From positions 1-40,289 of the forward strand of contig PAQM01000014.1 in assembly GCA_002709305.1 (NCBI GenBank): a DNA stretch of 40,289 bases. The letters run 5' to 3'. The notes under the pieces are model-generated. The model was not told the origin of the DNA. It searched no databases and saw nothing but the letters and a program-made list of their open reading frames with translations. This stretch comes from Crocinitomicaceae bacterium. GTDB taxonomy: Bacteria > Bacteroidota > Bacteroidia > Flavobacteriales_D > Crocinitomicaceae. How positions within the stretch are numbered: the first letter of the stretch is position 1; every line of letters starts with the position of its first letter. Positions 1-23,343 of this stretch are shown here, piece by piece. The position numbers and the translations under genes were made by a program.

Positions 1-99
1 GCGCCGGAGACTGTCGCCGACAATCTCCCAAACCGCGTAATGGGCGAAAGCCGCCCGGATGTGTTGTTTTTGCTTGCGCGTGAGCTTTTCAGTCTGCAT
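1..99 (-). CDS. Partial small early protein, 3' end cut by the window
   Basis: An open frame begins with ATG at 97-99 on the minus strand (MQTEKLTRKQKQ...) and stays open for 33 codons to the window edge. Its start overlaps the stop of the preceding 110-residue gene (stop at 89-91) by 11 bases, the tight packing seen in the rest of this cluster. The visible part is basic and then aromatic/hydrophobic. I do not recognise it. It would be the last visible member of the leftward early block. Confidence 0.5.
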   Translation of the reverse strand, partial: MQTEKLTRKQKQHIRAAFAHYAVWEIVGDSLRR

Positions 100-421
100 G
101 GAGCCGCACCTCGTCGATCGTTGCGAAGCGGACCTCAGCGCCCAGGGCGTGCAGGGCTTGCTCATACAGGTGCGCGTGACTCCTGAGCGCGTTCTGATGC
201 CGCGCCAGGAAGTAAAGGCGGCGGAACTGATAAACGGTGAGGGCGACCATATCGGCGGGCGCAGATTTGAACAGCTCGACGAGTTCGCGGGTGTCTTTGG
301 AGCCGGGGAGGATCACGTCGCCCAGCTGAACGGATTTGAGATTTCTGATGCGGTGGTTCAGCCTGAAGGCTTCGACAAGGTCGGTCGGGAGGTAGTGGTC
401 GCCGATGCGTGTTTCTTTCAT
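89..421 (-). CDS. Small early protein, 110 aa, unknown
   Basis: Begins MKETRIGDHYLP and is mostly predicted helix with many charged residues. It has no membrane segment and no cysteine motif, and I recognise no family. It is the second gene of the cassette driven by the repeat at 661-716, after the 58-residue gene, and is separated from it by the GGCC hairpin at 448-464. No Shine-Dalgarno is visible before the ATG; instead there is a pyrimidine-rich CTCTCTACCC, a degenerate form of the GTTCTACC motif found before several SD-less starts here. Confidence 0.7.
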   Translation of the reverse strand: MKETRIGDHYLPTDLVEAFRLNHRIRNLKSVQLGDVILPGSKDTRELVELFKSAPADMVALTVYQFRRLYFLARHQNALRSHAHLYEQALHALGAEVRFATIDEVRLHAD

Positions 422-447
422 GGGTAGAGAGCGAGAGAGGAAAGGGA

Positions 448-464
448 GAGGCCCAGGGGGCCTC
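448..464 (-). other. GGCC hairpin straddling a stop codon
   Basis: GAGGCCC at 448-454 pairs with GGGCCTC at 458-464, leaving a 3-base loop. On the minus strand the stop TGA of the 58-residue gene (463-465) is part of the stem. The following tract is pyrimidine-rich rather than a clean U-run. It could be a weak terminator, an RNA-processing or stability element, or a modulator between the two genes of the cassette. Nearly the same hairpin recurs at 1002-1017, with weaker versions at 1673-1686 and 2221-2235. Confidence 0.55.
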
Positions 465-639
465 AGTCCACGGTGTCGATGAAGTCGCTGATGGCCTCGG
501 TGCCGTCAAGCTCCATCAGGCGGTTGAGCACGATGTCGATGCACTGGAAAGGCATCTCTTGAGCGAACAGCTGGCGGTAGAGGTCGCGGAGTGAAGCGGA
601 GTCGAGGGTGGCGACTTTGGCGGTGAAGGTGTCGAGCAT
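463..639 (-). CDS. Small early protein, 58 aa, unknown
   Basis: Start chosen at the ATG at 637-639 (MLDTFTAKVATLDS...). A longer frame would run back into the promoter-like repeat at 661-716 and is unlikely to be translated. The protein is acidic and helical, ending DFIDTVD. It is the first gene of its cassette, about 25 bases downstream of the -10-like element. The leader resembles those of the other cassettes (CAACGCACCCCA before ATG). I recognise no function. Confidence 0.65.
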   Translation of the reverse strand: MLDTFTAKVATLDSASLRDLYRQLFAQEMPFQCIDIVLNRLMELDGTEAISDFIDTVD

Positions 640-660
640 TGGGGTGCGTTGCTGATGAAC

Positions 661-716
661 ATAGTATGACACCAGTTCGCCAGATCCTGCCACCACCTAG
701 ACACAGTTCGTCATCT
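661..716 (-). promoter_or_regulatory. Cassette promoter/operator repeat, copy A
   Basis: Read on the minus strand it carries TGGCA-type half-sites, TGGCAG as a -35-like box, an 18-base spacer holding a further TGGCG, and the extended -10 TGTCATACT. It is the most diverged of five copies: the leftmost half-site is TGACG instead of TGGCA. The stop of the upstream 87-residue gene falls inside it. It is inferred to drive 463-639 and 89-421. Confidence 0.6.
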
Positions 717-974
717 GTCCACTCCGACGCCTAGAAGGTTGTGACGCTTGGCGGCTTCAAAGCAGGGCTCCGGGTCGATTTTGTAGGTCTCGCAAACGTA
801 GAGAACGGACCGGAACAAAAGAACCATCAGCTCCGCGGCTGTTTTCGTGCTCCATTCGTAGTGACTGCGGTTGTGCAGCTTGGCCAGGCTCTGAACGTAT
901 TTGTTCGCCTTGCGGCTGCGAACGCACGCCAGGCGGCGCCATGCCTGGGCTTTGGTTTCTGTGGCTGTGGTCAT
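711..974 (-). CDS. Small early protein, 87 aa, MTTAT start
   Basis: Start taken at the ATG at 972-974 (MTTATETKAQAW...). The longer frame runs back across the hairpin and GTTCTACC region. The protein is basic in its first half (RRLACVRSRKANKYVQ) and has a hydrophobic helix LMVLLFRSVLYVCETY. Family unknown. It is the second gene of the cassette headed by copy B. No SD precedes it; GTTCTACC lies 10 bases before the ATG. The first codons (ATGACCACAGCC) match those of the 92-residue gene at 1308-1586 almost exactly. Confidence 0.65.
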   Translation of the reverse strand: MTTATETKAQAWRRLACVRSRKANKYVQSLAKLHNRSHYEWSTKTAAELMVLLFRSVLYVCETYKIDPEPCFEAAKRHNLLGVGVDR

Positions 975-984
975 GGTTTCAGAA

Positions 985-992
985 GGTAGAAC
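985..992 (-). promoter_or_regulatory. GTTCTACC motif before an SD-less start
   Basis: GTTCTACC on the minus strand ends 10 bases before the ATG of 711-974. Identical octamers lie 10 bases before the ATGs of 1308-1586 (1597-1604) and 6630-6908 (6919-6926), and 9 bases before 11642-11998 (11625-11632). Another sits 1 base before the exonuclease start (8907-8914). None of these starts has a recognisable SD. The motif could be a promoter element of near-leaderless messages, an operator or a translational element. Confidence 0.45.
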
Positions 993-1001
993 GAAAGAAG
1001 A

Positions 1002-1017
1002 GAGGCCCAGGGGCCTC
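1002..1017 (-). other. GGCC hairpin straddling a stop codon
   Basis: GAGGCCC at 1002-1008 and GGGCCTC at 1011-1017 form an inverted repeat. The TGA stop of 1016-1228 is at 1016-1018, inside the stem. It is the near-identical counterpart of 448-464 and has the same place between the first and second genes of its cassette. Confidence 0.55.
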
Positions 1018-1228
1018 AGAACCAACCAATCGTCATGTGAGGATTGGGGATGAACACCTCAACAAAGCAGCGAGTCTCTGCAGGGTTCCATTCAGTGCGA
1101 AAAACTAAATCCACATCATCGGCGCACCATTCCTGGCCGAACTCCCTGGCCTCGGCTTCTGTCTTGAAGCCTTCGGGATGGTTGTTCATGATTCCGACTG
1201 GTGAGCAGCCTGTGAATTTTCCGATCAT
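1016..1228 (-). CDS. Small early protein, 70 aa, unknown
   Basis: Begins MIGKFTGCSPVGIMNN and contains an EAEAREFGQEW helix followed by a likely beta hairpin (DLVFRTEWN, CFVEVFIPN). The TEAEAREFGQEW pattern resembles small phage proteins of unknown role, but I cannot name a family. An SD-like AGGGGAA lies 8 bases before the ATG. It is the first gene of the cassette headed by copy B. Confidence 0.7.
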   Translation of the reverse strand: MIGKFTGCSPVGIMNNHPEGFKTEAEAREFGQEWCADDVDLVFRTEWNPAETRCFVEVFIPNPHMTIGWF

Positions 1229-1251
1229 CGGGTTTTCCCCTGAACTGATCT

Positions 1252-1314
1252 AAGTATGACACCACCCTGCCAAAGTCTGACAGGGGGCTGTCACAGTTTG
1301 CCAGGTGTCACCCG
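1252..1314 (-). promoter_or_regulatory. Cassette promoter/operator repeat, copy B
   Basis: On the minus strand it reads GTGACAC, CTGGCAAAC, TGTGACAG, CTGTCAG, TTTGGCAGGG, then GTGTCATACTT. The half-sites recur at about 10-12 base spacing, so they lie on one face of the helix. The extended -10 is TGTCATACT, with a TGTCAG/TGGCAG-type -35 18 bases upstream in all copies. The TGA stop of 1308-1586 is the TGA of the first GTGACAC box. Inferred to drive 1016-1228 and 711-974. Confidence 0.65.
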
Positions 1315-1586
1315 CAGATGATCACTTCCTCGGTCTCCAGGTTGACGATCACGTAACCGGGGACGTGCTGCCACTTGCGGATCAGGCGTTTGATGTCCTT
1401 CGACGCGGTAGTTCTCTCCGGCATGGCCAGACAGAAGGCAACGCCCTGGGCGCCCCCCTGGGCCTGGCGCTTGGCGCTGACGCCGTTGCTGAGATTGATC
1501 CGGTAGTGATAGCAGGTGTCACCCCTTGCGCCCGGTTGGTTTTTCGTGGTGCTGGTGACGTTGGCGGTCAGTGTTGCTGTGGTCAT
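1308..1586 (-). CDS. Small early protein, 92 aa, MTTAT start
   Basis: Start chosen at the ATG at 1584-1586 (MTTATLTANVTSTTKNQ...), 10 bases after a GTTCTACC motif; there is no SD. The first ~20 residues are Thr/Asn-rich. The rest has a basic patch around SAKRQAQGG and a C-terminal beta-type tail (GYVIVNLETEEVIICG). Two upstream in-frame residues beyond the motif do not look coding. It is the second gene of the copy C cassette, and its stop lies inside copy B. No family recognised. Confidence 0.7.
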   Translation of the reverse strand: MTTATLTANVTSTTKNQPGARGDTCYHYRINLSNGVSAKRQAQGGAQGVAFCLAMPERTTASKDIKRLIRKWQHVPGYVIVNLETEEVIICG

Positions 1587-1596
1587 GATTTTGAAA

Positions 1597-1604
1597 GGTA
1601 GAAC
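1597..1604 (-). promoter_or_regulatory. GTTCTACC motif before an SD-less start
   Basis: Minus-strand GTTCTACC followed by a 10-base A/T-rich spacer and the ATG of 1308-1586. The spacing is the same as at 985-992 and 6919-6926. Confidence 0.45.
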
Positions 1605-1672
1605 GTTGGAAGTTGGGCGGGGTGTTGGCAAGCTCTCACGGGTTCGCGCTCTCGCTCCTTACCGGGTTCCAT

Positions 1673-1686
1673 GGCCCCGCTGGGCC
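1673..1686 (-). other. GGCC hairpin next to a stop codon
   Basis: GGCCC at 1673-1677 pairs with GGGCC at 1682-1686, directly after the TGA of 1687-1929 (1687-1689). It is a weaker member of the stop-codon hairpin set at 448, 1002 and 2221. The roughly 85 bases between it and the next start (to 1587) hold only the GTTCTACC motif. Confidence 0.4.
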
Positions 1687-1929
1687 TCATCTTTGCTTTT
1701 TCTGGGCGGCTGCGATCTCCTGAGCGTGGCGCTGGCGGCGTGTCAGCTCCATCCCGAAGGTGGAAGCCTGATCGCTATAGAAACCCTCCTTAACGGGGTT
1801 CCAGCCGCGCATGGCTTTTTCGGCTTCCTGGCAATCGCGGACGGTGTAAACCAGCTCGCGAAAGGTCATCGTTTTGGCCTTGGCTTCCCAGGCGGTGAAG
1901 TCGGCGGGGGTGGCGTACTCGGGGCGCAT
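1687..1929 (-). CDS. Small early protein, 80 aa, unknown
   Basis: MRPEYATPADFTAWEAK... is a mostly helical, charged protein with a basic C-terminal helix (LTRRQRHAQEIAAAQKKQR). It is the first gene of the copy C cassette, 25-30 bases downstream of the -10-like box, and its leader (CAACCGCACAGCACCC) is shared with other cassettes. The leader has only a weak SD. No family recognised; a nucleic-acid-binding or adaptor role would be a guess. Confidence 0.7.
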   Translation of the reverse strand: MRPEYATPADFTAWEAKAKTMTFRELVYTVRDCQEAEKAMRGWNPVKEGFYSDQASTFGMELTRRQRHAQEIAAAQKKQR

Positions 1930-1952
1930 GGGGTGCTGTGCGGTTGACTCTT

Positions 1953-2014
1953 AAAGTATGACACAGGGTTGCCAGATGCTGCCATGCCTGTGCCACAGTT
2001 CGCCAAGTGTCACA
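1953..2014 (-). promoter_or_regulatory. Cassette promoter/operator repeat, copy C
   Basis: The minus strand reads TGTGACAC, TTGGCGAAC, TGTGGCAC, ATGGCAGC, TCTGGCAACCC, TGTGTCATACTTT. It has the same box order and spacing as copies B and D. The TGA at 2010-2012 ending the 60-residue gene lies in the first box. Inferred to drive 1687-1929 and 1308-1586. Confidence 0.65.
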
Positions 2015-2192
2015 TCTCCAGAACTCCGGTGTCCAGCATCCTGACCAGCTTCGCGCGGTGCCGATAGACAAAATTGAGATGTTCCTGAACCGACTTCGGG
2101 CGCAGGTCTTCCGACCGGCTCATTTCTTTCGTGATGAACAGATCACACTCAGCGATGGCGTGTTGAATGCGGGCGATTTTGTCGGAAGTCAT
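2010..2192 (-). CDS. Small early protein, 60 aa, unknown
   Basis: Start chosen at the ATG at 2190-2192 (MTSDKIARIQHAIAECDL...), because the longer frame would begin inside the preceding gene's 3' end and hairpin. Almost wholly helical and charged, ending KLVRMLDTGVLEM. It is the second gene of the copy D cassette. The upstream AACCTCTCGCC is pyrimidine-rich with no SD. Function unknown. Confidence 0.65.
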   Translation of the reverse strand: MTSDKIARIQHAIAECDLFITKEMSRSEDLRPKSVQEHLNFVYRHRAKLVRMLDTGVLEM

Positions 2193-2220
2193 GGCGAGAG
2201 GTTTCAGGGTTTGCAGTGAT

Positions 2221-2235
2221 TGGCCCATCAGGCCA
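2221..2235 (-). other. Short GGCC hairpin around a stop codon
   Basis: TGGCC at 2221-2225 pairs with GGCCA at 2231-2235. The TGA stop of 2228-2467 sits across the loop and stem. It is the fourth and weakest of the hairpins found at the end of the first gene in each two-gene cassette. Confidence 0.35.
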
Positions 2236-2467
2236 CACGGGAAGCGCGGACACAAGGGGCCATGCTGTAGCGGCCCAGGGGGTAGGCCAGCTCAGAGCCC
2301 TGATCGTCGGTCTTGATGGCAACGCGAGCCACGGGGCCGAACCCGTCGACCTCGAAGGTGACGAACTTGGCGGTGCGCTTGATCACCTTGCAAGCGGTGA
2401 GGGCGTCAGCGTCGCCAACCCAGCGCATCGCGTAGGTGGTGCCGGTTTGAAAGGTTGCGGTGGTCAT
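2228..2467 (-). CDS. Small early protein, 79 aa, MTTAT start
   Basis: Start at the ATG at 2465-2467 (MTTATFQTGTTYAMRW...), with an SD-like AAGGGA 4 bases upstream. Predicted mostly beta: WVGDADALTACKVIKRT, then FVTFEVDGFGPVARVAIKTD. This suggests a small beta-barrel or OB-like fold, but I cannot assign a family. It is the first gene of the copy D cassette. It shares the MTTAT start and ATGACCACCGC codons with other cassette genes. Confidence 0.7.
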   Translation of the reverse strand: MTTATFQTGTTYAMRWVGDADALTACKVIKRTAKFVTFEVDGFGPVARVAIKTDDQGSELAYPLGRYSMAPCVRASRVA

Positions 2468-2490
2468 GTGTCCCTTGCGGTTGATGCCAT

Positions 2491-2551
2491 AAGTATGACA
2501 CCACCCCGCCACACTCTGCCGCGCCTATGTCACACTCTGCCAGGTGTCACA
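2491..2551 (-). promoter_or_regulatory. Cassette promoter/operator repeat, copy D
   Basis: The minus strand reads GTGTGACAC, CTGGCAGAG, TGTGACAT, GCGGCAGAG, TGTGGCGGGG, TGGTGTCATACTT. It matches copies B and C box by box. The TGA of the 86-residue gene (2547-2549) is in the first box. Inferred to drive 2228-2467 and 2010-2192. Confidence 0.65.
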
Positions 2552-2807
2552 CAGTCGGCTCATTCTTCCCGGGGCGCTCATATCCCCAGGCCGCGAGCCA
2601 TTCCCTCAGAGCCTGCCCGGTTGGCGTGCTCGCTGGCCACCTGCAGAGCCTCAGGATCTTCGAGAATGCTTCGGCGTCATCCCCGCCCACGCCCTGGGCG
2701 ACATCAGGCCGCCAAACGATCCAGACAGGGGCCGGGCCTTCCCTGACGTTCAGCCGTCGAACTATCAGCGACCCATGGCGGACAAACTCGGCGGGCGGTT
2801 TTTCCAT
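2547..2807 (-). CDS. Small early protein, 86 aa, unknown
   Basis: Begins MEKPPAEFVRHGSLIVRRL, with a beta-rich N-terminal half and a tryptophan-rich C-terminal half (LCRWPASTP, LREWLAAWGY). The ATG at 2805-2807 follows the U-tract of a terminator hairpin by only a few bases, so there is no room for a standard SD. Either expression depends on read-through or the true start is internal. Its stop lies in copy D, as expected for a cassette's last gene. Family unknown. Confidence 0.55.
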   Translation of the reverse strand: MEKPPAEFVRHGSLIVRRLNVREGPAPVWIVWRPDVAQGVGGDDAEAFSKILRLCRWPASTPTGQALREWLAAWGYERPGKNEPTV

Positions 2808-2811
2808 GGCA

Positions 2812-2850
2812 CAAAAAAACGGGGCCAGTCCGTTGACACCTGGCCCCGCC
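2812..2850 (-). terminator. Rho-independent terminator, leftward
   Basis: GGGGCCAG at 2821-2828 and CTGGCCCC at 2840-2847 form a perfect 8-bp stem with an 11-base loop. On the minus strand this is followed by G and a run of seven T (2813-2819). It is the clearest intrinsic terminator in the early region and closes the four-gene group that starts at 3653. It lies just upstream of the 86-residue gene, so it may act as an attenuator for it. Confidence 0.8.
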
Positions 2851-2873
2851 TACTCTCGCATCCCCACACTAGG

Positions 2874-2993
2874 TTAAAGCTTCCGACATTGTTCGACAGT
2901 TCCATAACATCTCTCAACGTTGCTCAGCTCGCTACCTGCGAAACCGAACGCGCAGCCGACGAGGAAAAGAAGGGCGATGATTTTGAGGTTCAT
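2874..2993 (-). CDS. Tiny possible lipoprotein, 39 aa
   Basis: Frame MNLKIIALLFLVGCAFGFAG... with a Lys-containing n-region, a hydrophobic core of about 10 residues and a lipobox LVGC with Cys14. Two more cysteines (28 and 36) follow in a short polar tail. The ATG overlaps the TGA of the preceding gene (ATGA at 2990-2993), which suggests translational coupling. A short phage lipoprotein could be a superinfection-exclusion, outer-membrane-acting or o-spanin-like factor, but that is inference. A cleavable signal peptide (after GFA) is the alternative reading. Confidence 0.6.
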   Translation of the reverse strand: MNLKIIALLFLVGCAFGFAGSELSNVERCYGTVEQCRKL

Positions 2994-3211
2994 TGTTCGA
3001 CAGCTCGGCGGGGCATCATGGGCGCGCCAGTGATGAAGTCATCCTGGCCCCTTTCAATGATCCTCAGCTCCTCCTCAGGGCGGCCGCTGCTCTTCCATAT
3101 TCTGATTTTCTTTTGAGCCGCGCCGATGGTGAAATGCTGCGAAAGCAGGACCCAGCTCCCGGCTCTGTAGGCCTGCAGCTGAAAAGGCATGTGTGATTGT
3201 TTGATTCTCAT
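2990..3211 (-). CDS. Small early protein, 73 aa, unknown
   Basis: Start set at the ATG at 3209-3211 (MRIKQSHMPFQLQAYR...), just after the stop of the 75-residue gene. The ATG at 3188-3190 is a possible alternative, and the longer upstream frame overlaps the previous gene. It has a beta-like start (FQLQAYRAGSWVLLSQHFT), a basic helix (AAQKKIRIWKSS), then EEELRIIERGQ. The pattern resembles small phage proteins of unknown role. Its stop overlaps the start of the lipoprotein-like gene. Confidence 0.6.
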   Translation of the reverse strand: MRIKQSHMPFQLQAYRAGSWVLLSQHFTIGAAQKKIRIWKSSGRPEEELRIIERGQDDFITGAPMMPRRAVEQ

Positions 3212-3228
3212 GGGGTCAAGTGGACGCA

Positions 3229-3456
3229 TCAGATCATGTGTGAATGTGTGGCGATCCCTTCGGCGGCTGCATCTTCGAGGCTGTCGCCAGCCTTGCGGCA
3301 GATCTCGGCAGTGAACGCGGCGCACTCCAGAAAATGCTGGTTTGTGCCAATGTCGATTCCGGCTCGCTCAGCCTCTGACTTTATTAGTTCGATCCAGTAC
3401 ATGAACGGGAAAGCTTCAGTGATCAGCTCGGGAAGGGTTAAGGGTGGCAGGGCCAT
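3229..3456 (-). CDS. Small early protein, 75 aa, unknown
   Basis: MALPPLTLPELITEAFPFMYW... is mostly helical, with two cysteines (CAAFTAEIC) and no membrane span. Its ATG overlaps the TGA of the upstream 65-residue gene (3454-3458), so it is probably translationally coupled. It is the second gene of the copy E group. I recognise no family. Confidence 0.65.
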   Translation of the reverse strand: MALPPLTLPELITEAFPFMYWIELIKSEAERAGIDIGTNQHFLECAAFTAEICRKAGDSLEDAAAEGIATHSHMI

Positions 3457-3653
3457 CAGGCCCGAACCACTTTCGGTGTGCTGTTGGCGATAGAGACGCC
3501 TGCGGACTGTGCCCAGTAGGCCCAGAACTTGGCGTTGCTCACCAGGGCCTCACGGGCGATCTGCTCTGTGGGGTAGCTGGTCAGGATGGACTTGCCCGCG
3601 CAGATTGACCACTTGCGGCCGGTCTTGCGAACTTCGAGGGAAACGGTGGTCAT
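3456..3653 (-). CDS. Small early protein, 65 aa, MTT start
   Basis: Start at the ATG at 3651-3653 (MTTVSLEVRKTGRKWSI...); the longer frame would begin inside the copy E repeat. It has a beta-rich first half and then a helix with aromatic residues (AKFWAYWAQS). An SD-like CAGGAG lies just after the -10-like box of copy E, but about 20 bases from the ATG, so initiation is uncertain. It is the first gene of the rightmost early group. Function unknown. Confidence 0.65.
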   Translation of the reverse strand: MTTVSLEVRKTGRKWSICAGKSILTSYPTEQIAREALVSNAKFWAYWAQSAGVSIANSTPKVVRA

Positions 3654-3677
3654 CGGGTGCGGTGCGTTCGACTCCTG

Positions 3678-3740
3678 AAGTATGACACCCCCTTGCCAGA
3701 ACTTGCCAGCAATCTGCCACACCTTGCCAACTGGCACACG
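3678..3740 (-). promoter_or_regulatory. Cassette promoter/operator repeat, copy E
   Basis: The minus strand reads GTGTGCCAG, TTGGCAAGG, TGTGGCAGA, GCTGGCAAG, TTCTGGCAAGG, GGGTGTCATACTT. It has the most regular TGGCA half-sites of the five copies. No gene stop is embedded here, because this is the upstream end of the cluster. Inferred to drive 3456-3653, 3229-3456, 2990-3211 and 2874-2993. Confidence 0.65.
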
Positions 3741-3897
3741 GTGAATGGGTGGGGGGTTGTCACGCCTGGCTGTGTCCCTAGCTCTCCGCTCTGTTATCCC
3801 CCCGGCGCCATTGTCGCGGCTTTTTGGCGTCTGTGCCCTGATGAACGACCTGTAGCAACGGCTACCGATAACATTCGGTCCCCTATCGGAGAAAACG

Positions 3898-4044
3898 ATG
3901 ATCGCAACCTATCGAGGCAACACCTACGAAACCGAACAGCAGAAAGGACAGGAAGCGCAGCCCCCTGCCCTGACTTATCGAGGCGTGCCCTATCAGCCCC
4001 AGGCTAGAAACCATCGGCCCTATCAGCCGCAATCGGAACGCTGA
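3898..4044 (+). CDS. DUF4278-like small protein, 48 aa
   Basis: The frame opens MIATYRGNTYETE and repeats the theme at residues 26-32 as TYRGVPY. This [T/L]-YRG-x-x-Y signature is typical of the DUF4278 family as I recall it. GGAG lies 6 bases before the ATG. It is the only rightward gene in the first 8.8 kb, and its last 41 bases overlap the 3' end of the convergent primase gene. The upstream 3845-3895 contains two small inverted repeats (GTAGC/GCTAC and CCGATA/TATCGG), but no clear promoter. The family's function is unknown. Confidence 0.65.
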   Translation: MIATYRGNTYETEQQKGQEAQPPALTYRGVPYQPQARNHRPYQPQSER

Positions 4045-6625
4045 CGCCTCGGCTTTGATGCCCCCCGGTGAAATACATCGACGGGGTCACCTCAGCGCCT
4101 GGGATCTGTTTCAGCACAGTTCGCCAGTCGTTTGACCAGGGCGTTTTTTCCAGGATCTTGGCAATGGCTGAATGATTGGCCGAGACGATAAGACGCCCAC
4201 TCACAACCTTCAGCCCCGACCGCTGCAGAAGATCCCCGGCGCGCTTGCTGGTTATCTCAGCGTGCAGATTCCGGTTCAGGTGGATCTCTAGCAGCTCACC
4301 CATGGGCAGCTCAGTGTCAGTGCCCGACATCCTCACGCGGCTTTCGAGAATGCGATTCAGGCACCGCTCATGATCAGCAGAATCCCGGGCGGGCTCTAGG
4401 AACTCCTCCCAGTGATATTGACCGATGAACGCTGCCGCCGTTTCGAGGGTGGCCTCGTCATCGCTGACCATGGAGAACGCCCCGGCCATCAATGCGCCGA
4501 ACTGATCCCCGGCTCGTCGGTTGCCGAACAACTCAGAGCACACATCAGAGAACAGCTGAACCTCACGCAACAGCATCGGCAGGCGTTGCACGGTGCGGGC
4601 GATCAGTCGCTTTCCGGTGTTGGCGTCGATCTTTGCCAGACGTTGGCGCAGGATCTCCCAGCTTTCGGCGTGCTCGACCTGTTCGGCCGGTGTGTCGTTT
4701 GCGGGGTTTCGCAGCTGCAACAGAGCAAAGCGGCTCTTATCGCTGCCTTGCTTCAGGCTCGACGTGATCGAGCTGAGCAGAAACATCGATCGGATCAAAT
4801 ACTCTTGCCCGGTGCCGCTGGCGGTGCCCTTGAGGGTCTTTGCGCCGGTCTCAGAGCTTGACGCCCTGGCCAGCTCCATGATCGCCTGCAGGCGTTCCTC
4901 ATCGCGCGCCTGGGCCTGCTCTGCTTCATCCATCAGAACGGGGATGGCATCGCTTCCCAGGTGTTGGCGGAGACCGGCCTCAGTGCTGGCGCCTAAGACG
5001 CTCGTTTCCATCTCGCCCAGTAAGGGCTTGACGTACATCGACAGAACCGATGATTTTCCTGAGCCTGCCCCGCCAACAATCCAGGCATGGGATCGCCAGT
5101 TAAGGGCGCCACATACGGGGGCGAGAGCCACCCATCCTGCGAGCATAGCCGCCGAGCCCGGATGCTCCCATCTGCAAAGCTTGGCAGTCTCGAAAAGGCC
5201 CCGGGACTCCTCAACCGTCATCGGTTGATCGAGCTTCGGCCCGGCCAAGGCTGCGCCCTGTTCATAGATGAACCGGCTCTCCACCTTGCCCACCTCCACC
5301 TGGGCGCCGTCGCAGATGACGCGCTCCCCTAAGTGGATGACGACTCGCTCTGCGTCGATCCAGCATCCCCGCCCCCTAACTCGGCGAGGGTCATAAACAC
5401 CCTGAGCATGCTGATTTTCGTAGAGCCAGGAACACGCGGCGCCCCAGTTGACAGAAACATCACCGTTTCGGGTGCGTTTCTCGAAATGTTCGAGCCACCA
5501 GGCTCCGGGGGCGAGAGTGAGCAAACGTCGCTCGACGTGGCCTGAGGCGCTGATTCCGATGACCTGCTTTTGTCCTCGGGGCAGATAGAAATACTGGTCT
5601 TTGTTGAATCCGAGGAATTGGAAGGGGGATTCATCGGTGACCTGTGGCGGCTGTGGTGGCTCATCGCGCCTCGCCTGGGTGTTGTTCCCACGTTGCCGCC
5701 TTTGCGCTGCGTCGAGGCAGCCGCGCAGCTTGTCGTCAGAGAGGCACGGCTCAGGTGTCCCCTTGCTTGCACTGCTCCAGATCAGAGTTGCTTCCCTGGC
5801 ATTCAGCGGAGGGCTGCAGCGGGCGCAAAACTCATTGAACAGCATCCGGGCAGAACCTGACAGCCTGACGCCGTTTGACCCTGCCCAGGCTTCGACGCCT
5901 AGAAGATCCGCCGCCAGTTTGAAACCGGCATTGTTTCGGCCGCCCTCCCCGCAACCTTTCGCGATCAGCTCACGATGCTCGCGGGCTAACAGCTTCTCAA
6001 TGGGCATCTCATCAGGGAGTGCCGGGGCTTTCTGCAGCTGTTCGAGCAAGGGCGCTGAATTGCGTTCTTTCCTCTGCATTGCCTGAAGCAACACAGCGGG
6101 CGCCTCGGCGATCCCGGCCTTATCGAAACCCACGACCCACTGATAGGGGTTGCCGGTCTGCGGATGAATCCCGGCCACGACCTGCTGACCCGTCCAGCGC
6201 AGCTCTAGGGCCTCCTCTTTGCCGTCTGGGCCTTTCACGCCCGTCTTGATCGTCGTGTGCTGTATGGCATCGCGCAGGCGATCGGGCACGGTGTAGAAGC
6301 AGCAAAACCGCCCGGGCTTGCCTGAGGTGATCGTCGGCGTCATGGGCAGTCGCTCAATTCCGAACCGCTCTTTCAGCAGGTTCGAGGCGGCTTGCCCGTC
6401 AACATCAACAGCCAACAGCGAACCCGACGCCTCCCCGAGCACAACACCGACCATCGAGGCCCGGCGTTTGTTCACAGGATCCTTAAGCAATTCAGAGATT
6501 TTCCCTGCGTCCTGCTTCAGGTTGCGCCAGTTTTGTTGGTAGGCCTTTTTGGTGTCCCCCTTGCCCTCGACGAGCACAAAATTCCAGCCCTTCGGTAGGG
6601 CCTCAATCTCTTCTCTTAATCCCAC
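4004..6625 (-). CDS. Primase-polymerase/helicase fusion, 873 aa
   Basis: Replication protein with three parts. Residues about 10-180 match the bifunctional primase/polymerase fold, with LAVDVDG giving metal-binding Asp74 and Asp76 and a conserved His in VVAGIHP at about 154. Residues about 205-310 look like a PriCT-type helical linker. Residues about 330-790 resemble the DUF927-type helicase domain, with Walker A GGAGSGKSS at about 518-526 and Walker B IPVLMDEAEQ at about 561-570. It should synthesise primers and unwind DNA at the phage origin. It starts with GTG at 6623-6625, just after the 92-residue gene, and overlaps the DUF4278-like gene tail to tail. Confidence 0.88.
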   Translation of the reverse strand: MGLREEIEALPKGWNFVLVEGKGDTKKAYQQNWRNLKQDAGKISELLKDPVNKRRASMVGVVLGEASGSLLAVDVDGQAASNLLKERFGIERLPMTPTITSGKPGRFCCFYTVPDRLRDAIQHTTIKTGVKGPDGKEEALELRWTGQQVVAGIHPQTGNPYQWVVGFDKAGIAEAPAVLLQAMQRKERNSAPLLEQLQKAPALPDEMPIEKLLAREHRELIAKGCGEGGRNNAGFKLAADLLGVEAWAGSNGVRLSGSARMLFNEFCARCSPPLNAREATLIWSSASKGTPEPCLSDDKLRGCLDAAQRRQRGNNTQARRDEPPQPPQVTDESPFQFLGFNKDQYFYLPRGQKQVIGISASGHVERRLLTLAPGAWWLEHFEKRTRNGDVSVNWGAACSWLYENQHAQGVYDPRRVRGRGCWIDAERVVIHLGERVICDGAQVEVGKVESRFIYEQGAALAGPKLDQPMTVEESRGLFETAKLCRWEHPGSAAMLAGWVALAPVCGALNWRSHAWIVGGAGSGKSSVLSMYVKPLLGEMETSVLGASTEAGLRQHLGSDAIPVLMDEAEQAQARDEERLQAIMELARASSSETGAKTLKGTASGTGQEYLIRSMFLLSSITSSLKQGSDKSRFALLQLRNPANDTPAEQVEHAESWEILRQRLAKIDANTGKRLIARTVQRLPMLLREVQLFSDVCSELFGNRRAGDQFGALMAGAFSMVSDDEATLETAAAFIGQYHWEEFLEPARDSADHERCLNRILESRVRMSGTDTELPMGELLEIHLNRNLHAEITSKRAGDLLQRSGLKVVSGRLIVSANHSAIAKILEKTPWSNDWRTVLKQIPGAEVTPSMYFTGGHQSRGVSVPIAADRADGF

Positions 6626-6629
6626 TCGC

Positions 6630-6908
6630 TCAGTTCTCCAGAATGGGCGTCGCCCAGATGTAAAGCTGACGGACCCGGTTCACGACGGGCTCAGCTCGTT
6701 TGTAGTTCCACCCTGAAGGGCGGTCTCGGATGGCCTTAGTTGCCCAGACTTCGGGGAATTTCGCAAAATTCCAGATGTCGACTTCTGAGACCGGATACTG
6801 AAGTGGCCGCTGATTGCACTGCCTGTAAAGGGTTTCTAGTGCGGCGAGAGCGTAACGAGGCTCCCGGATGTCGACCCTCTCCTCGGGGGGTCGCGGTTTG
6901 GGCGGCAT
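6630..6908 (-). CDS. Small protein in replication operon, 92 aa
   Basis: Start chosen at the ATG at 6906-6908 (MPPKPRPPEERVDIRE...); the longer frame overlaps the VRR-NUC gene. It has a Pro/charged N-terminus, then helical segments with conserved-looking tryptophans (DIWNFAKFPEVWATK, PSGWNYKR, LYIWATP). No family recognised. A GTTCTACC motif lies 10 bases before the ATG and no SD is present. It lies between the nuclease and the primase, so a replication accessory role is plausible but unproven. Confidence 0.65.
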   Translation of the reverse strand: MPPKPRPPEERVDIREPRYALAALETLYRQCNQRPLQYPVSEVDIWNFAKFPEVWATKAIRDRPSGWNYKRAEPVVNRVRQLYIWATPILEN

Positions 6909-6918
6909 TTTTGCGGTA

Positions 6919-6926
6919 GGTAGAAC
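6919..6926 (-). promoter_or_regulatory. GTTCTACC motif before an SD-less start
   Basis: Minus-strand GTTCTACC, then TACCGCAAAA and the ATG of 6630-6908. The 10-base spacing is identical to that of the early-cassette examples, although this gene is in the replication operon. Confidence 0.45.
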
Positions 6927-6960
6927 GCGCCTCGAACTTATCGAATGTGAATCTGAGCGG

Positions 6961-7320
6961 CTAGCCCTTAACAAACGTTGACATAATTTTTTTCGCATCC
7001 TCGACGCTCCTCGCTATCCCTGCAAAACCCCCGGCGGCCTGAACCACACTGATGAATTTTTTCTGTTCTTTCGTTGGCCTGCCTTTGTCCTTGACTTCGA
7101 CAGCCGTAAAAACTGCGACCCTCTCACCGATCATTTCCTCGGTGATTGTGATCGTCTTCCAACCAATCAGATCACTCGATCCTTTGGCCAAACCAAAACA
7201 AACGATCCGCCCGCGATCATTTCTTAAGCATCCGGTGTTATTGCGGAACAACCGGCAATCTTCATGCCCAAGCTCTAAGCGGATCTCATTCTGTATCGCC
7301 TGCTCATAAGAAACGGCCAC
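6961..7320 (-). CDS. VRR-NUC family nuclease, 119 aa
   Basis: A stand-alone VRR-NUC domain, the small PD-(D/E)XK nuclease found in many phages. Visible motifs: N-terminal helix with EIR (residues 12-14), GSSDLIG with Asp50, the catalytic strand TAVEVKDK with Glu75 and Lys77, then the conserved TKEQKKFI helix with Gln86. The family cuts structured or damaged DNA; phage members may act on replication or recombination intermediates. It starts with GTG at 7318-7320, with AGGAG about 11 bases upstream. It overlaps the helicase 3' end by 17 bases, which suggests coupled expression. Confidence 0.88.
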   Translation of the reverse strand: MAVSYEQAIQNEIRLELGHEDCRLFRNNTGCLRNDRGRIVCFGLAKGSSDLIGWKTITITEEMIGERVAVFTAVEVKDKGRPTKEQKKFISVVQAAGGFAGIARSVEDAKKIMSTFVKG

Positions 7321-8725
7321 GCTCGTTTCTGCTCCTGTGAATGTGATATGCCCAACCCGGAGAGTAACCGCGCTCCCTCGCGAGTGCTTGAAGTTCCTGC
7401 AGCGTGCGGGCCTGCGCCTGTTGTTTTTTCTTTCTGCGTTTGTCTTCTTTCTCCCTTTGTCTGATCAATGCCTCGGTGACTTTTAGCTCTCGAAGTTCAC
7501 CATCACCGAATGCGACGGGTTTGACTTTGGGCTTTGGCGGCTCTGCGCCGCAGTAGGGGCAAGGCGAGCCACCGCCTGGGATTGCCGCGAAACACTCCGG
7601 GCAAACAGTCACCCAGGGCGCAGCCCGTTTTTCTTCCTGTTCTTTCCTCTCTTTGGAACCGTCGAGGCTCCATATCCGCAGGTCTTGCGGCAGGCCGTGG
7701 CGCCGTATGTTCCCCGCATGGTCAAGGATGACCGCCTGAGTTTTCCCCGGAGCTGGGCGCAGACATCGGCCGACCTGTTGCAGAAAAAGGCTGAGGCTGT
7801 TTGTCGGCCTGCAGAGTATTGCCCCGCCGACGCTGGGAACGTCTGTCCCTTCGCTTATCACCTCGCAGCTGCACAAAACCTGAACCTCCCCGGTTCGCAG
7901 CCCGTCGATCAATTTTCGACGAACAGATGGGCTAAGGGTGCCGTCTATCACTGCCGCGCGCACGCCTGAGGCCTGAAACTTTGCAGCTATGGCCTCAGCA
8001 TGGGCAACAGTGACACAGAAGCAGATTGCAGTTTTTGGCTCTAGGTGCTTTTTGTAGTGCTCGACAACGTCACCCATGAGCCGGGCGTTCGCCATCGCGT
8101 CGCTCGCGTCGTCTTTCCTGAAGTCGCCGCCCAGGACCCGAAGCTTTTTGAAGTCAACGCCGGTCGGGGGACAGAGGATTTTTGTTTGGCACAGATGCCC
8201 CGCCTTCATCAGATCCCAGGTCCCCGGGCCACAGATCAGCTCGTCAAACCAGGGGCGCAGGGCTTTGCCGTCTAGTCGCTCAGGTGTTGCAGTCACGCCC
8301 AGCCGGTGCGCGTCGGGGAAAGCCTGTAAGCATTTCTGCCAACTCCCGGCCGCTGCATGGTGCGCCTCATCGATCACCACAAAATCGAAAACCCCGGCCC
8401 ATCGATTGAGCCGACGTGCCAGGGATTGAACCGACGCAACCTGAACCATCTTTTTCGGTTGCTCAGGTTCGCCCGGTGCGATCACGCCAACATCGAGCCC
8501 CAGGTTTTCGAGTGCTTCGCGGGCCTGCGTGACCAGCTCTTGACGGTGAACGAGGATCACCACGCGCCGCCCCTTCATGGTTGCGGCCTCGGCGACATAG
8601 CAAAACACCACTGTTTTTCCGCCACCCGTGGGGAGACAGAACAAAACAGACCGCTTCCCGGCCGCGTAAGCCGCGCGAATCCAGTTCACCGCGTTTTGCT
8701 GATAGTCCCGAAGGGTCACCCGCAT
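7304..8725 (-). CDS. SF2 DEAD/DEAH helicase, 473 aa
   Basis: Superfamily 2 ATPase of the ResIII/Rad3-like phage type. Motif I LPTGGGKT at residues 31-38, motif II DEAH at 119-122, motif III TAT at about 144-146, motif VI QQVGRCLRP at 316-324. Near the C-terminus is a four-cysteine zinc ribbon (CPEC at 375-378, CPYC at 389-392), followed by a very basic stretch (REKEDKRRKKKQQ). It is expected to unwind or remodel DNA in phage replication or recombination. It is the first gene of the leftward replication operon, reading out of the divergent control region; AAGGA precedes the start. Confidence 0.9.
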   Translation of the reverse strand: MRVTLRDYQQNAVNWIRAAYAAGKRSVLFCLPTGGGKTVVFCYVAEAATMKGRRVVILVHRQELVTQAREALENLGLDVGVIAPGEPEQPKKMVQVASVQSLARRLNRWAGVFDFVVIDEAHHAAAGSWQKCLQAFPDAHRLGVTATPERLDGKALRPWFDELICGPGTWDLMKAGHLCQTKILCPPTGVDFKKLRVLGGDFRKDDASDAMANARLMGDVVEHYKKHLEPKTAICFCVTVAHAEAIAAKFQASGVRAAVIDGTLSPSVRRKLIDGLRTGEVQVLCSCEVISEGTDVPSVGGAILCRPTNSLSLFLQQVGRCLRPAPGKTQAVILDHAGNIRRHGLPQDLRIWSLDGSKERKEQEEKRAAPWVTVCPECFAAIPGGGSPCPYCGAEPPKPKVKPVAFGDGELRELKVTEALIRQREKEDKRRKKKQQAQARTLQELQALARERGYSPGWAYHIHRSRNERGRFL

Positions 8726-10513: not shown

Positions 10514-10742
10514 ATCACTCACCCCAAACACAGTTCGCAGGAGAAACGTTGGTTTCTATCAACCGGACCCGCCCACGTCAGGGGACCTCTCAGGCATGCG
10601 TCGTTCTGATCCTCGGTGGCAGTCGCGTTTCGGTTATTCGTCAGGGGCCGGGTGCTTTATGGCAATCCCGGTGAGTTCATGGAGCTGCCCCCAGCATGCT
10701 CCGCCAACGTTTGGGAGGTGGCGCTATGTCAGATCGAGATGA
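10506..10742 (+). CDS. Uncertain small ORF, 78 aa
   Basis: Begins MNKSLTPNTVRRRNVGFY and overlaps the recT end. GAGGAG lies 7 bases before the ATG, a good SD. It has a basic start and a Cys/Trp/Pro-rich C-terminus of unusual composition. Other frames in this 210-base gap are also partly open, including one reading LYGNPGEFMELPPAC that looks at least as protein-like. The reading frame may therefore be wrong or the gene degraded. No family recognised. Confidence 0.4.
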   Translation: MNKSLTPNTVRRRNVGFYQPDPPTSGDLSGMRRSDPRWQSRFGYSSGAGCFMAIPVSSWSCPQHAPPTFGRWRYVRSR

Positions 10743-10968
10743 CGACCATATCCTTCGGGAGCTGAAAAGCGGGGACGGCCTGCCAAAGGCCAACCTAACC
10801 CCGAAGGAACTGGCCGAGTTCTGGTGTATGGCCGATCATACGCTCGCCAACTGGCGACACCAGGGCATCGGTCCCAAGTTCACAAAGGTGGGCGCCCGCA
10901 TTCTCTACAAAGTCGAGGATGTGATCGCCTATGAAAAAACTCACAACCCTGCAGACAAAGACTCATGA
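10726..10968 (+). CDS. Excisionase-like HTH protein, 80 aa
   Basis: Start at the ATG at 10726-10728, preceded by GGGAGGTGG; an upstream in-frame ATG lacks an SD. Residues about 20-65 are a MerR/excisionase-type winged helix: LTPKELAEFWCMADHTLANW, then GPKFTKVGARILYKVEDVIAYE. Such proteins bind DNA as recombination directionality factors or small regulators. With an integrase 2.4 kb downstream it is the best excisionase candidate in the window. Position in the recombination operon would equally fit a regulator. Its stop overlaps the ssb start. Confidence 0.8.
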   Translation: MSDRDDDHILRELKSGDGLPKANLTPKELAEFWCMADHTLANWRHQGIGPKFTKVGARILYKVEDVIAYEKTHNPADKDS

Positions 10969-15404: not shown

Positions 15405-15557
15405 TCAGTTTTTTTTAGATGGCTTCAGCGAAAAGGCAGCCTTAAGCAGAAGCTGAATCATTGAATTTGACTGCAGCTTGCTCATTCCGATGACCTCGGA
15501 AATGGCGGTCAAAATGATCCAGGTTGCTGGGCTGTTAAGCAGCTCGAAGATGTCCAT
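15405..15557 (-). CDS. Small hydrophobic protein, 50 aa, lysis region
   Basis: MDIFELLNSPATWIILTAIS... with AGGAGA 6 bases before the ATG (15555-15557). It has a moderately hydrophobic helix at about 12-24, an amphipathic helix (MIQLLLKAAF) and a basic tail (KPSKKN). It overlaps the end of the C39-like peptidase gene by 23 bases. A membrane-associated lysis factor is plausible from the position, but the hydrophobic segment is short for a classic holin. Confidence 0.55.
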   Translation of the reverse strand: MDIFELLNSPATWIILTAISEVIGMSKLQSNSMIQLLLKAAFSLKPSKKN

Positions 15558-16239
15558 TTGGTGTCTCCTGTGTTTTGGAAGTTAGGAAGATCCGGCCCCA
15601 TCCTGACTCAGGACCTTCGCAAAGCCAACGGGCGGAAAGTTCCGACCATGGGTAACTAACGAATTTCCCGGTCTCAGCGTTGCCGGTGTAACCGTCTATC
15701 AGGGACCCGTAGGGGTCATGAAAGACGACTGCATTCTCTGAAGGGTCGAGGCCCACGGCCACGATCATGTGACCGCCCCACGGTCTCTCAATGGTCCCCT
15801 TGTGCAGGATACCTAGAACACACGGGCGGCCAGCTCGAAGCTCGCTCTCAAGGGTGGCCCGGCTCAGGTCATACCTGAAAACAGACTCAAGCCCATAGAG
15901 CCTCAAAATTTTTGTCATCGCCGCGTGGTTCGTCACGTCGTGCTTTCGGTTTACGAACTCGACGATCAGATCGTCGTCACCTTTGATGGATCCGGGCAGC
16001 AAGTAATTCAGACACATCGCGCAGCTCGAAGGGTTGCACGTCCGGTGAGCCATTAGGGCGTTGTCGAGCTGGGTGTAAAAAGGAACGTCGAGCATCAGGC
16101 CAGCATCTGCAGCTGGGCTGAAAACATCTGCAAACGCCCGGACAACATGCGGGGGCGTCATGCCCTCAAGCTTTGCCACTGCGTCCCGTTGATGGGGCAA
16201 TCCCTCGTAATGCTCGAAGGCCCGCGCAATGAATCCCAT
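15535..16239 (-). CDS. C39-like cysteine peptidase, 234 aa
   Basis: Start at the ATG at 16237-16239, with AAGGAGG 5 bases upstream (the longer frame lacks an SD). The domain matches the peptidase_C39_2-type papain fold. LDVPFYTQLDN (about residues 49-59) precedes the catalytic-site loop CNPSSCAMCLNYL; the His motif is GGHMIVAVGLD; VVFHDPYG supplies the Asp. It lies between the spanin-like gene and the 50-residue gene, upstream of lysozyme. A peptidoglycan-peptide or host-protein cutting role in lysis or entry is therefore likely. Which Cys is catalytic is not certain. Confidence 0.78.
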   Translation of the reverse strand: MGFIARAFEHYEGLPHQRDAVAKLEGMTPPHVVRAFADVFSPAADAGLMLDVPFYTQLDNALMAHRTCNPSSCAMCLNYLLPGSIKGDDDLIVEFVNRKHDVTNHAAMTKILRLYGLESVFRYDLSRATLESELRAGRPCVLGILHKGTIERPWGGHMIVAVGLDPSENAVVFHDPYGSLIDGYTGNAETGKFVSYPWSELSARWLCEGPESGWGRIFLTSKTQETPNGHLRAA

Positions 16240-16249
16240 TTTCCCCTCC

Positions 16250-16516
16250 TTAAGGTCGCCGACCTTCCAGCCGGTCAACCCGTCGCTCGATGTCTTTGAT
16301 CTCTTCTTTTAACCAGGCCAGGGCTTTCTCTCTCGCTTCCTCTGACCGCTCCAAAATTTGCAGCGTTTGATCCTGTTTCAACCGCAATTCAGACAGCTGA
16401 ATTTGAACGTTCACCATCAGCGTTCCGAACGCCACAAGTCCGCCAAGTAATGCAACCGGCAAAGCCTGACCCGTTCCATTCATTAGGTTTTGCCAGAGCG
16501 TCGGGCGCTGTGTCAT
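16250..16516 (-). CDS. Membrane coiled-coil protein, i-spanin-like, 88 aa
   Basis: Start at the ATG at 16514-16516 with GGAGG upstream; the longer frame extends into gene D. One transmembrane helix at about 17-38 (ALPVALLGGLVAFGTLMVNV) is followed by a long, highly charged coiled coil to the C-terminus (LRLKQDQTLQILERSEEAR...). This is the layout of inner-membrane spanin subunits (Rz type) and of some holin-associated proteins. No overlapping outer-membrane partner (Rz1) was found in the alternative frames I checked. Confidence 0.6.
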   Translation of the reverse strand: MTQRPTLWQNLMNGTGQALPVALLGGLVAFGTLMVNVQIQLSELRLKQDQTLQILERSEEAREKALAWLKEEIKDIERRVDRLEGRRP

Positions 16517-22815: not shown

Positions 22816-23343
22816 TTAAGCGTGCCCCCATAAAACGAGCGACGAGCGATGACCATCTCGAACCTCTAGGGCTCGATGTAAAAGCAAAGAAGGAAAAATG
22901 ATCATCCTCCCCTGTTTTTTTTCGGGCCTCGGGTTTTCGATGCTGTGAAATTCAAGCCCGCCACCTTTGAAAGTTTTTGGATCGCTTAGCTCGACTGTTG
23001 CCGAGAAATGGCGAGGCGGTCGATCTGGGCAGGCGTGCGCGTCATAGTGCCAGCCGTAAAAGTCTCCGGGGCCATAGTGAGTGAATTGAATGGGCTCGAC
23101 GGAAGCGAGGTGTAGGCCCAGGAAGGCGCGGACACCATCACCAAAAGCGGTCACACATTTTTGCATCAGCCGATCGATCTCCGGCTGTTCACCATTGGCA
23201 AACCAGTTGATAGAGCCCCGGCGTTTTTTGTCGTCGCCATTGCCCGTGCTGGCGCATTTCAGGTTTGCCCGGCCCGCCTCGATGACCTGCGCGCATTCTT
23301 CTGCTGTGAGCACAGCCTCGACTAATGCCCAGGCGGGGATCAT
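22816..23343 (-). CDS. 2-oxoglutarate/Fe(II) oxygenase (P4H-like), 175 aa
   Basis: Prolyl-4-hydroxylase-type double-stranded beta helix. Iron ligands are visible as His99-x-Asp101 (WHYDAH) and His156 (LLHRALEV), with the 2OG-binding Arg166 (GHRSSLV). A conserved GGGLEF precedes the distal His, and FTHYGPGDFYGWHYD is the family block. It should hydroxylate a protein or small substrate; with fibre genes next to it a tail-fibre or host-surface target is possible. It overlaps the next oxygenase by 4 bases (ATGA). Confidence 0.88.
   Translation of the reverse strand: MIPAWALVEAVLTAEECAQVIEAGRANLKCASTGNGDDKKRRGSINWFANGEQPEIDRLMQKCVTAFGDGVRAFLGLHLASVEPIQFTHYGPGDFYGWHYDAHACPDRPPRHFSATVELSDPKTFKGGGLEFHSIENPRPEKKQGRMIIFPSLLLHRALEVRDGHRSSLVLWGHA

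Follow-up and report, generated by a model that had tools for sequence, protein, structure and literature searches.

What are the related elements that head successive groups of small leftward genes near one end of a 40,289-nucleotide stretch, and how might such an array arise? The stretch (the window) corresponds to bases 1–40289 of the 48,061-base contig C14 in bin G000, also catalogued as IMGVR_UViG_2778261443_000001, and a sequence-only reading had placed five such elements in it. We consider it reasonably likely, from sequence comparisons, that these are sigma-70 promoter cassettes that depend on an activator and serve as exchange points for small genes. In the mechanism we propose, a 24-bp inverted repeat (the dyad, diverged in C14) would bind a dimeric factor next to a weak −35 region, on its upstream side, the dyad centre lying at about −54 if transcription starts 6–7 nt past the −10 hexamer. 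The factor would aid the host RNA polymerase at a −10 that has the extended form TGTCATACT in C14 and TATACT or TATAAT elsewhere. The cassettes would sit between small ORFan genes, and recombination between them, possible because the copies are alike, would add, lose and permute gene units.

All five elements lie where they had been placed, with their sense on the minus strand (family D1, 61 nt), and the remaining four window copies are 61–80% identical to the reference copy. On that strand the extended −10, TGTCATACT, begins at 671, 1261, 1963, 2500 and 3687, positions by which we refer to the elements:

661–722, minus strand: element 671; dyad 722–699 (poor match), extended −10 at 671–663; followed by genes 463–639, 89–421 and a third across the contig end (minus strand).
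1251–1312, minus strand: element 1261; dyad 1312–1289, −10 box 1258–1253; heads genes 1016–1228 and 711–974.
1953–2014, minus strand: element 1963; dyad 2014–1991 (the top dyad score in C14), −10 box 1960–1955; followed by genes 1687–1929 and 1308–1586 (minus strand).
2490–2551, minus strand: element 2500; dyad 2551–2528, −10 box 2497–2492; heads genes 2228–2467 and 2010–2192.
3677–3738, minus strand: element 3687; dyad 3738–3715, −10 box 3684–3679; followed by genes 3456–3653, 3229–3456, 2990–3229, 2874–2993 and perhaps 2547–2807 (minus strand).

The count of five holds for the window but not for the whole array: beyond the window's last base the contig holds two further copies, whose boxes are at C14:47555 and C14:46986. 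Because the contig ends overlap (head 1–341 versus tail 47720–48060; 341 bases, 95.3% identity), we took the genome as circular, at about 47.7 kb, and the seven copies as one array, located on the packaging-gene side of the primase. The overlap also explains why no host junction is seen. The overlapping ends differ at 16 of 341 bases, which points to two phage variants or an assembly error.

A gapless alignment of the seven copies left 26 of 60 columns invariant, compared with 0.015 on average in 2,000 random sets, none of which had more than 1. TGNCA occurs 28 times in these copies (4.0 per element versus 0.25 per random genomic 60-mer, where it never exceeded 3 in up to 20,000 draws), and 13 of 21 neighbouring spacings are 10 or 11 nt. 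The individual copies contain 6, 6, 5, 4, 4, 2 and 1 exact TGNCA motifs, the last belonging to 46986; the earlier description of four or more half-sites at helical spacing suits four of the window elements but not 671, which has two. When a profile was built from the aligned copies, as had been proposed, the seven scored 69–79 bits against 6.4 bits for the best of 30 shuffles, the matrix having been trained on the same copies it scores. These results confirm the five elements as genuine, far beyond chance. In all seven C14 elements the −10 hexamer lies 30 nt past the dyad and 22–25 nt from the ATG, and at elements 2500, 1963 and 1261 the TGA stop of the upstream gene falls within the dyad. No consensus sigma-70 promoter was found at the five window elements, as expected if the polymerase needs help.

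A related phage contig, G003 (47,975 bases; primase 75% identical; ends overlapping over 192 bases at 99.5%), holds six elements, while Synechococcus phage S-H1 holds five weaker look-alikes and pattern scans of viral contigs revealed further phages, some with multiple copies. Across these relatives, the upstream part of the element is an inverted repeat, TGTGCCASTT-NNNN-AASTGGCACA, followed after 28–30 nt by a −10 hexamer. An independently trained matrix located this dyad, TGTGNCANNTNNNNAASTGNNNCA, in C14 in diverged form. The string of TGGCA half-sites was seen in C14 and G003 only, and what the relatives keep is the dyad and its near-fixed distance from the −10.

The dyad matrix was derived from 85 unique sites of other viruses, picked by pattern among the matches listed, with C14 excluded. 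Its five best C14 sites are elements 1963, 3687, 1261, 2500 and 47555 (16.6 to 8.3 bits); the next reach at most 0.5 bits, including 46986 at −1.9, and 671 is outside the 16 sites listed. In G003, the five best sites fall at five of the six elements. The right half-dyad in C14 mostly reads TGTGGCA or TGTGACA in place of TGGCACA, and since G003 holds both forms, the sequences suggest a drift from the dyad to a phased TGGCA string.

Viral contigs yielded at least 120 stretches with the composite of dyad and −10 (80 of them listed), compared with 29 in 257 Gb of cellular genomes, and many of the latter lack canonical half-sites and look like chance matches. At least two of the 29, the canonical-looking dyad promoters in the cellular loci L214 (Nonlabens xiamenensis) and L242 (Flavobacteriales TMED113), look like phage copies on possible phage contigs, and that in L214 precedes an MRKI-type gene start also found in viral contigs. 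The strict dyad was present at 5 sites in 4 of 388 cyanobacterial genomes, a count that includes the centre genome, itself selected because it had a match. Among 240 genomes of the family to which the bin belongs, the C14-type pattern occurred in one, G000, through C14 itself. These counts rule out the dyad as a common host-regulon site; weaker host sites may exist.

The phasing in C14 raises the question of whether direct repeats there, at a phase of about 10.5 bp, are the target of a PhoB/OmpR-type response regulator from the host. Boxes of the PhoB type are direct repeats with an 11-bp period, and in C14 TGNCA recurs at spacings of 10 and 11 nt, with less regularity in G003. The wider family is, however, an inverted and not a direct repeat, and hardly any cyanobacterial genome carries the strict dyad, so that we regard this explanation as highly improbable.

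Cyanophages provide the broadest view of the spacing between dyad and −10. Among 14 named cyanophages, the dyad (≤2 mismatches) occurred 131 times, compared with once for the reversed pattern, and was present in 11 of the 14. BLAST with one copy from the scanned viral contigs retrieved 25 phage records, all cyanophages, as partial matches with E values up to 1. The Synechococcus cyanomyovirus ACG-2014f (KJ019059, complete) contains 34 dyads of at least 14 bits versus 0 in the reversed sequence, with 29 of them at 30–60 kb among small open reading frames (ORFs); the number of BLAST-matching copies per ACG-2014f record was 15–26 (37 listed rows of 49 records matched). A −10 hexamer lies 28–30 nt past the dyad on the gene strand in 30 of the 34, whereas none was in range on the opposite strand and random points had one at that range in 0.8%. 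We also tested 96 dyads, chosen by dyad score, from stretches cut around known dyads (P-SSM2, S-SSM7, S-CRM01, S-PM2 and P-HM2) and from the whole of Microcystis phage Mic1, examining both sides and allowing 11 hexamers. Offsets 29 and 30 yielded 22 and 21 matches to the −10, and every other offset yielded at most 8. By phage, the hexamer was found at 28–31 nt for 11/11 dyads in P-SSM2, 11/12 in S-SSM7 and 4/5 in P-HM2.

The middle between dyad and −10 varies in sequence, and its length is 28, 29 or 30 nt in 5, 61 and 30 of 96 viral sites, respectively, of which only the split is informative because the sites were selected by the 28–30 pattern. A TTGACA-like −35 (≥4/6), where present in the viral set, mostly lies 16–17 nt before the −10 (26 of 38 counts). 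An activator that contacts RNA polymerase would fit three features: the dyad stands upstream of a weak −35, its distance from the −10 is nearly fixed although the middles are unrelated, and the −10 of C14 is extended. We infer a promoter role in vivo, activator binding at the dyad and a single factor for all copies.

The array also bears on how units move. The suggestion that units can be added or lost gains support from homologous genes in permuted order among the elements of C14 and G003. Lettered by their order in C14 (A-B-C-D-E, F, G, H, I), the genes run F-B, C-D-E, A, G, H, I in G003; A and F stand directly behind an element in both, and several C14 array genes have no homologue in G003. 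Representative cargo genes are:

3456–3653, minus strand: gene A, 65 aa; G003 homologue 4520–4708, likewise directly behind an element.
3229–3456, minus strand: gene B, 75 aa; G003 homologue 5876–6133, after gene F.
2547–2807, minus strand: gene E, 86 aa; TGA stop within the dyad of element 2500.
2228–2467, minus strand: gene F, 79 aa; G003 homologue 6103–6339, heading the first cassette there.
1308–1586, minus strand: 92 aa; no homologue found in the G003 array.
711–974, minus strand: gene G, 87 aa; G003 homologue 3625–3870.
463–639, minus strand: 58 aa; viral contig G243 has a weak homologue at 3553–3777 (E 2e-5), which likewise comes straight after an element.

At E 0.01, Pfam gave no match for any of the 17 array proteins in a set of 20, the other three being from outside the array. 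When ten array proteins were compared with PHROGs, seven had no match and two had weak matches to families of unknown function; array protein C14:46364–46714 matched an excisionase family (E 9e-5). Four of the five elements had been thought to control exactly two genes each, but by ORFs the figure is nearer three (2500, 1963 and 1261), with 3687 heading up to five genes and 671 two plus a third over the contig end.

A case of exchange was found between ACG-2014f isolates C90 and US17, in which one gene block is replaced between flanks that are 99.0% and 97.9% identical. Homology stops at C90 36356, just past the −10 of one element, and restarts at C90 39853, within the dyad of another; the exchanged block is 3.5 kb (methyltransferase, helicase) versus 1.0 kb with other genes. 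Breakpoints were taken from local alignment blocks in two ACG-2014f pairs; a global alignment split the replaced block into many gaps.

Exchange at elements would also be expected if the dyad served mainly for termination and recombination, as a 3′-end hairpin and exchange site, with the distance to the −10 reflecting descent of whole cassettes. A perfect dyad could form a 10-bp hairpin, and GC hairpins with T runs follow the dyad in several ACG-2014f copies when inspected by eye. Terminator-like sites are in fact enriched in window positions 1–4100 (10 versus 3.7 in shuffles, both strands), but none of the 10 falls in the five elements, and the C14 dyads have broken pairs, again by eye. Moreover, middles differ widely between phages, yet offsets 29–30 dominate, and base identity is conserved beyond pairing, albeit at training sites that were picked by pattern. 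Taken together, we judge this explanation improbable. Two minus-strand terminator-like sites lie inside modules, at 1017–1002 in module 1261 (between 1016–1228 and 711–974) and at 2834–2818 in module 3687 (ahead of gene 2547–2807), so that co-transcription of each whole module is not certain.

Several observations weigh against activator-dependent promoter cassettes as sites of exchange. The C14 dyads are poor, with two of the seven elements outside its five best matrix sites, and 1 of 100 shuffled genomes beat the top C14 site (19.5 versus 16.6 bits); no single C14 site is therefore significant alone, whereas the coincidence of sites with elements is. BLAST with one metagenomic copy matched only 4 Vibrio phage records (20–25 bases, E 0.7), and no dyad within 2 mismatches was found in S-H1, S-RIM12 or Ma-LMM01. 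The −10 lies at 28–31 nt for only 13/48 dyads in Mic1, 3/6 in S-PM2 and 1/14 in S-CRM01; with TATGCT as the hexamer, the S-CRM01 count rises to 4/14, all at 29 nt, and this phage seems to use TATGCT. In C90, a second insert, with an HNH endonuclease, approaches an element at one end only, so that elements do not account for every event. At E 1e-3 no ORF of C14 or G003 had a counterpart in Mic1, and an HTH_17 protein (10696–10968) found in C14, G003, S-H1 and G243 was rejected as the regulator, having no match in ACG-2014f or Mic1. Finally, the C14 TGGCA sites, at 10–11 nt, also overlap the −35 and −10 regions, which suits a repressor.

The sites might accordingly be operators at which a phage lysogeny repressor or silencing factor blocks the promoters until induction, and C14 carries an integrase, so is probably temperate. 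However, the canonical dyad is common in T4-like cyanomyoviruses, which are regarded as lytic, with the same spacing in most of those tested. Placement of the dyad ahead of the −35 is also more typical of activators, and no repressor gene conserved alongside it was found. A repressor thus appears unlikely to us, and we continue to favour an activator.

As to the identity of such an activator, the MerR/excisionase-like protein C14:46364–46714 matched G003 and no other compared phage, and was likewise set aside. The failure to find a regulator gene that Mic1 shares with C14 or G003, together with the strict dyad in 4 of 388 cyanobacterial genomes, implies that the factor differs by phage group or else belongs to the host, where it would act at sites of another kind. 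We offer as a tentative idea that unrelated cyanophages, among them T4-like myoviruses, Mic1 and P2-tailed temperate phages such as C14, have in common a class of promoters confined to viruses and served by one trans-acting factor. As C14 and Mic1 yielded no shared phage gene, this factor may be a conserved cyanobacterial protein, exploited at a super-site that hosts hardly use.

How do these elements compare with known systems? The PeSL (promoter-early stem-loop) cassettes of T4-type phages, reportedly described by Arbiol in 2010 and Comeau in 2014, are the closest described kind. Both appear to be repeated promoter-like cassettes between small variable genes, and both show gene exchange at cassettes, here in one ACG-2014f case, with C14 itself giving only permuted order relative to G003. 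Unlike PeSLs, the cyanophage elements have a conserved 24-bp dyad at a near-fixed distance from the −10, and the C14 elements contain no stem-loop terminator, although such structures were seen by eye in several ACG-2014f copies. Moreover, PeSL carriers are T4-type myoviruses, whereas C14 is not T4-like (P2-type tail tube FII protein, S-H1-like replication genes). The start-associated sequences (SAS/ESAS) of cluster K mycobacteriophages resemble the cyanophage elements as short repeats before many small genes, but are not known to be related to them in sequence, host or position. P2 Ogr and P4 delta act at sites centred near −55.

The sites of Ogr and delta have a TGT...ACA dyad upstream of promoters without a sigma-70 consensus, as here, but in the sections that define them they read TGT-N12-ACA or TGTTGT-N13-ACAACA, versus TGT-N18-ACA in cyanophages, and serve late operons rather than small ORFans (PMC3931495, PMC5694545). 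Pfam scans of 35 distinct selected proteins named no Ogr, no dedicated Ogr profile search being made.

The sequence-only reading knew of no described element that matches, a view that published work now corrects: the motif passages of the Mic1 genome paper give a motif with the same dyad (PMC7156551), and shuffled PeSL cassettes are named in part of PMC4503421. The Mic1 motif is presented as a predicted promoter repeated 8 times, with the dyad as GTGCCAGTTYATAAAGTGTCACA before a predicted −35 and −10; those passages describe it for one phage, neither as a dyad nor as common to cyanophages (PMC7156551). Our matrix identified 48 dyads in Mic1. In a section on the S-PM2 ORFan region, PeSL action was judged unlikely there for lack of density (PMC4503421). 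In searches of open-licence papers, the dyad was not found in print outside the Mic1 paper. Between 65.9 and 72.1 kb of Mic1 (locus L091, 5958–12124), dozens of dyads stand among tiny genes on the minus strand, in places 56–70 bp apart, denser than one promoter per gene requires.

A 2010 review, in its treatment of transcription, left open how early and middle transcription proceed in T4-like cyanophages without motA and asiA, and mentions a putative middle promoter in P-SSM4 and Syn9, which may or may not be the dyad element (PMC2984593). The dyad, present in 11 of 14 sampled cyanophages and at a near-fixed distance from the −10 in most examined, offers a concrete target for the early/middle switch, and exchange at elements suggests one route by which ORFan regions turn over.

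The probable assignment of C14 to the cyanophages rests on its gene content and composition. Its GC content is 57%, compared with 28–31% for four of the bin's six sampled contigs, 43% for one and 67.5% for another (C8), and the bin looks mixed. Neither photosystem family PF00124 nor 16S rRNA was found in bin G000, the latter showing only an assembly gap. Two genes next to the array are relevant to the host:

3898–4044, plus strand: DUF4278 protein, 48 aa (28.4 bits; cut-off 25.3), between the array and the primase.
4004–6625, minus strand: primase; nearest named relative in Synechococcus phage S-H1 (43%).

None of 19 other related genomes encodes DUF4278, and of 14 control genomes Synechococcus elongatus alone does; the protein is likely a cyanobacterial host marker on the phage. 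C14 has genes in common with S-H1, G243 and ACG-2014f, its replication genes are S-H1-like, its terminase is, however, nearest to those of Wolbachia phage WO and Rhodobacter phages, and it carries the integrase and P2-type tail tube FII protein. By these sequence affinities, C14 is probably a temperate cyanophage put in the wrong bin. That it is a prophage of the bin's bacterium is unlikely, given the GC gap, the lack of PF00124 in the bin and DUF4278.

A near-match DNA search of window positions 1–25000 against phages gave no match, a distant search of positions 1–8000 gave a single match (102 bases, helicase), and a primase search of genome contigs gave no relative. Elsewhere in the window, a 2OG-Fe(II) oxygenase (22816–23343, minus strand) resembles four ORFs of ACG-2014f, and a C39-type cysteine peptidase (15535–16278, minus strand) resembles an ACG-2014f protein (E 5e-51) whose gene adjoins antenna and ferrochelatase genes.

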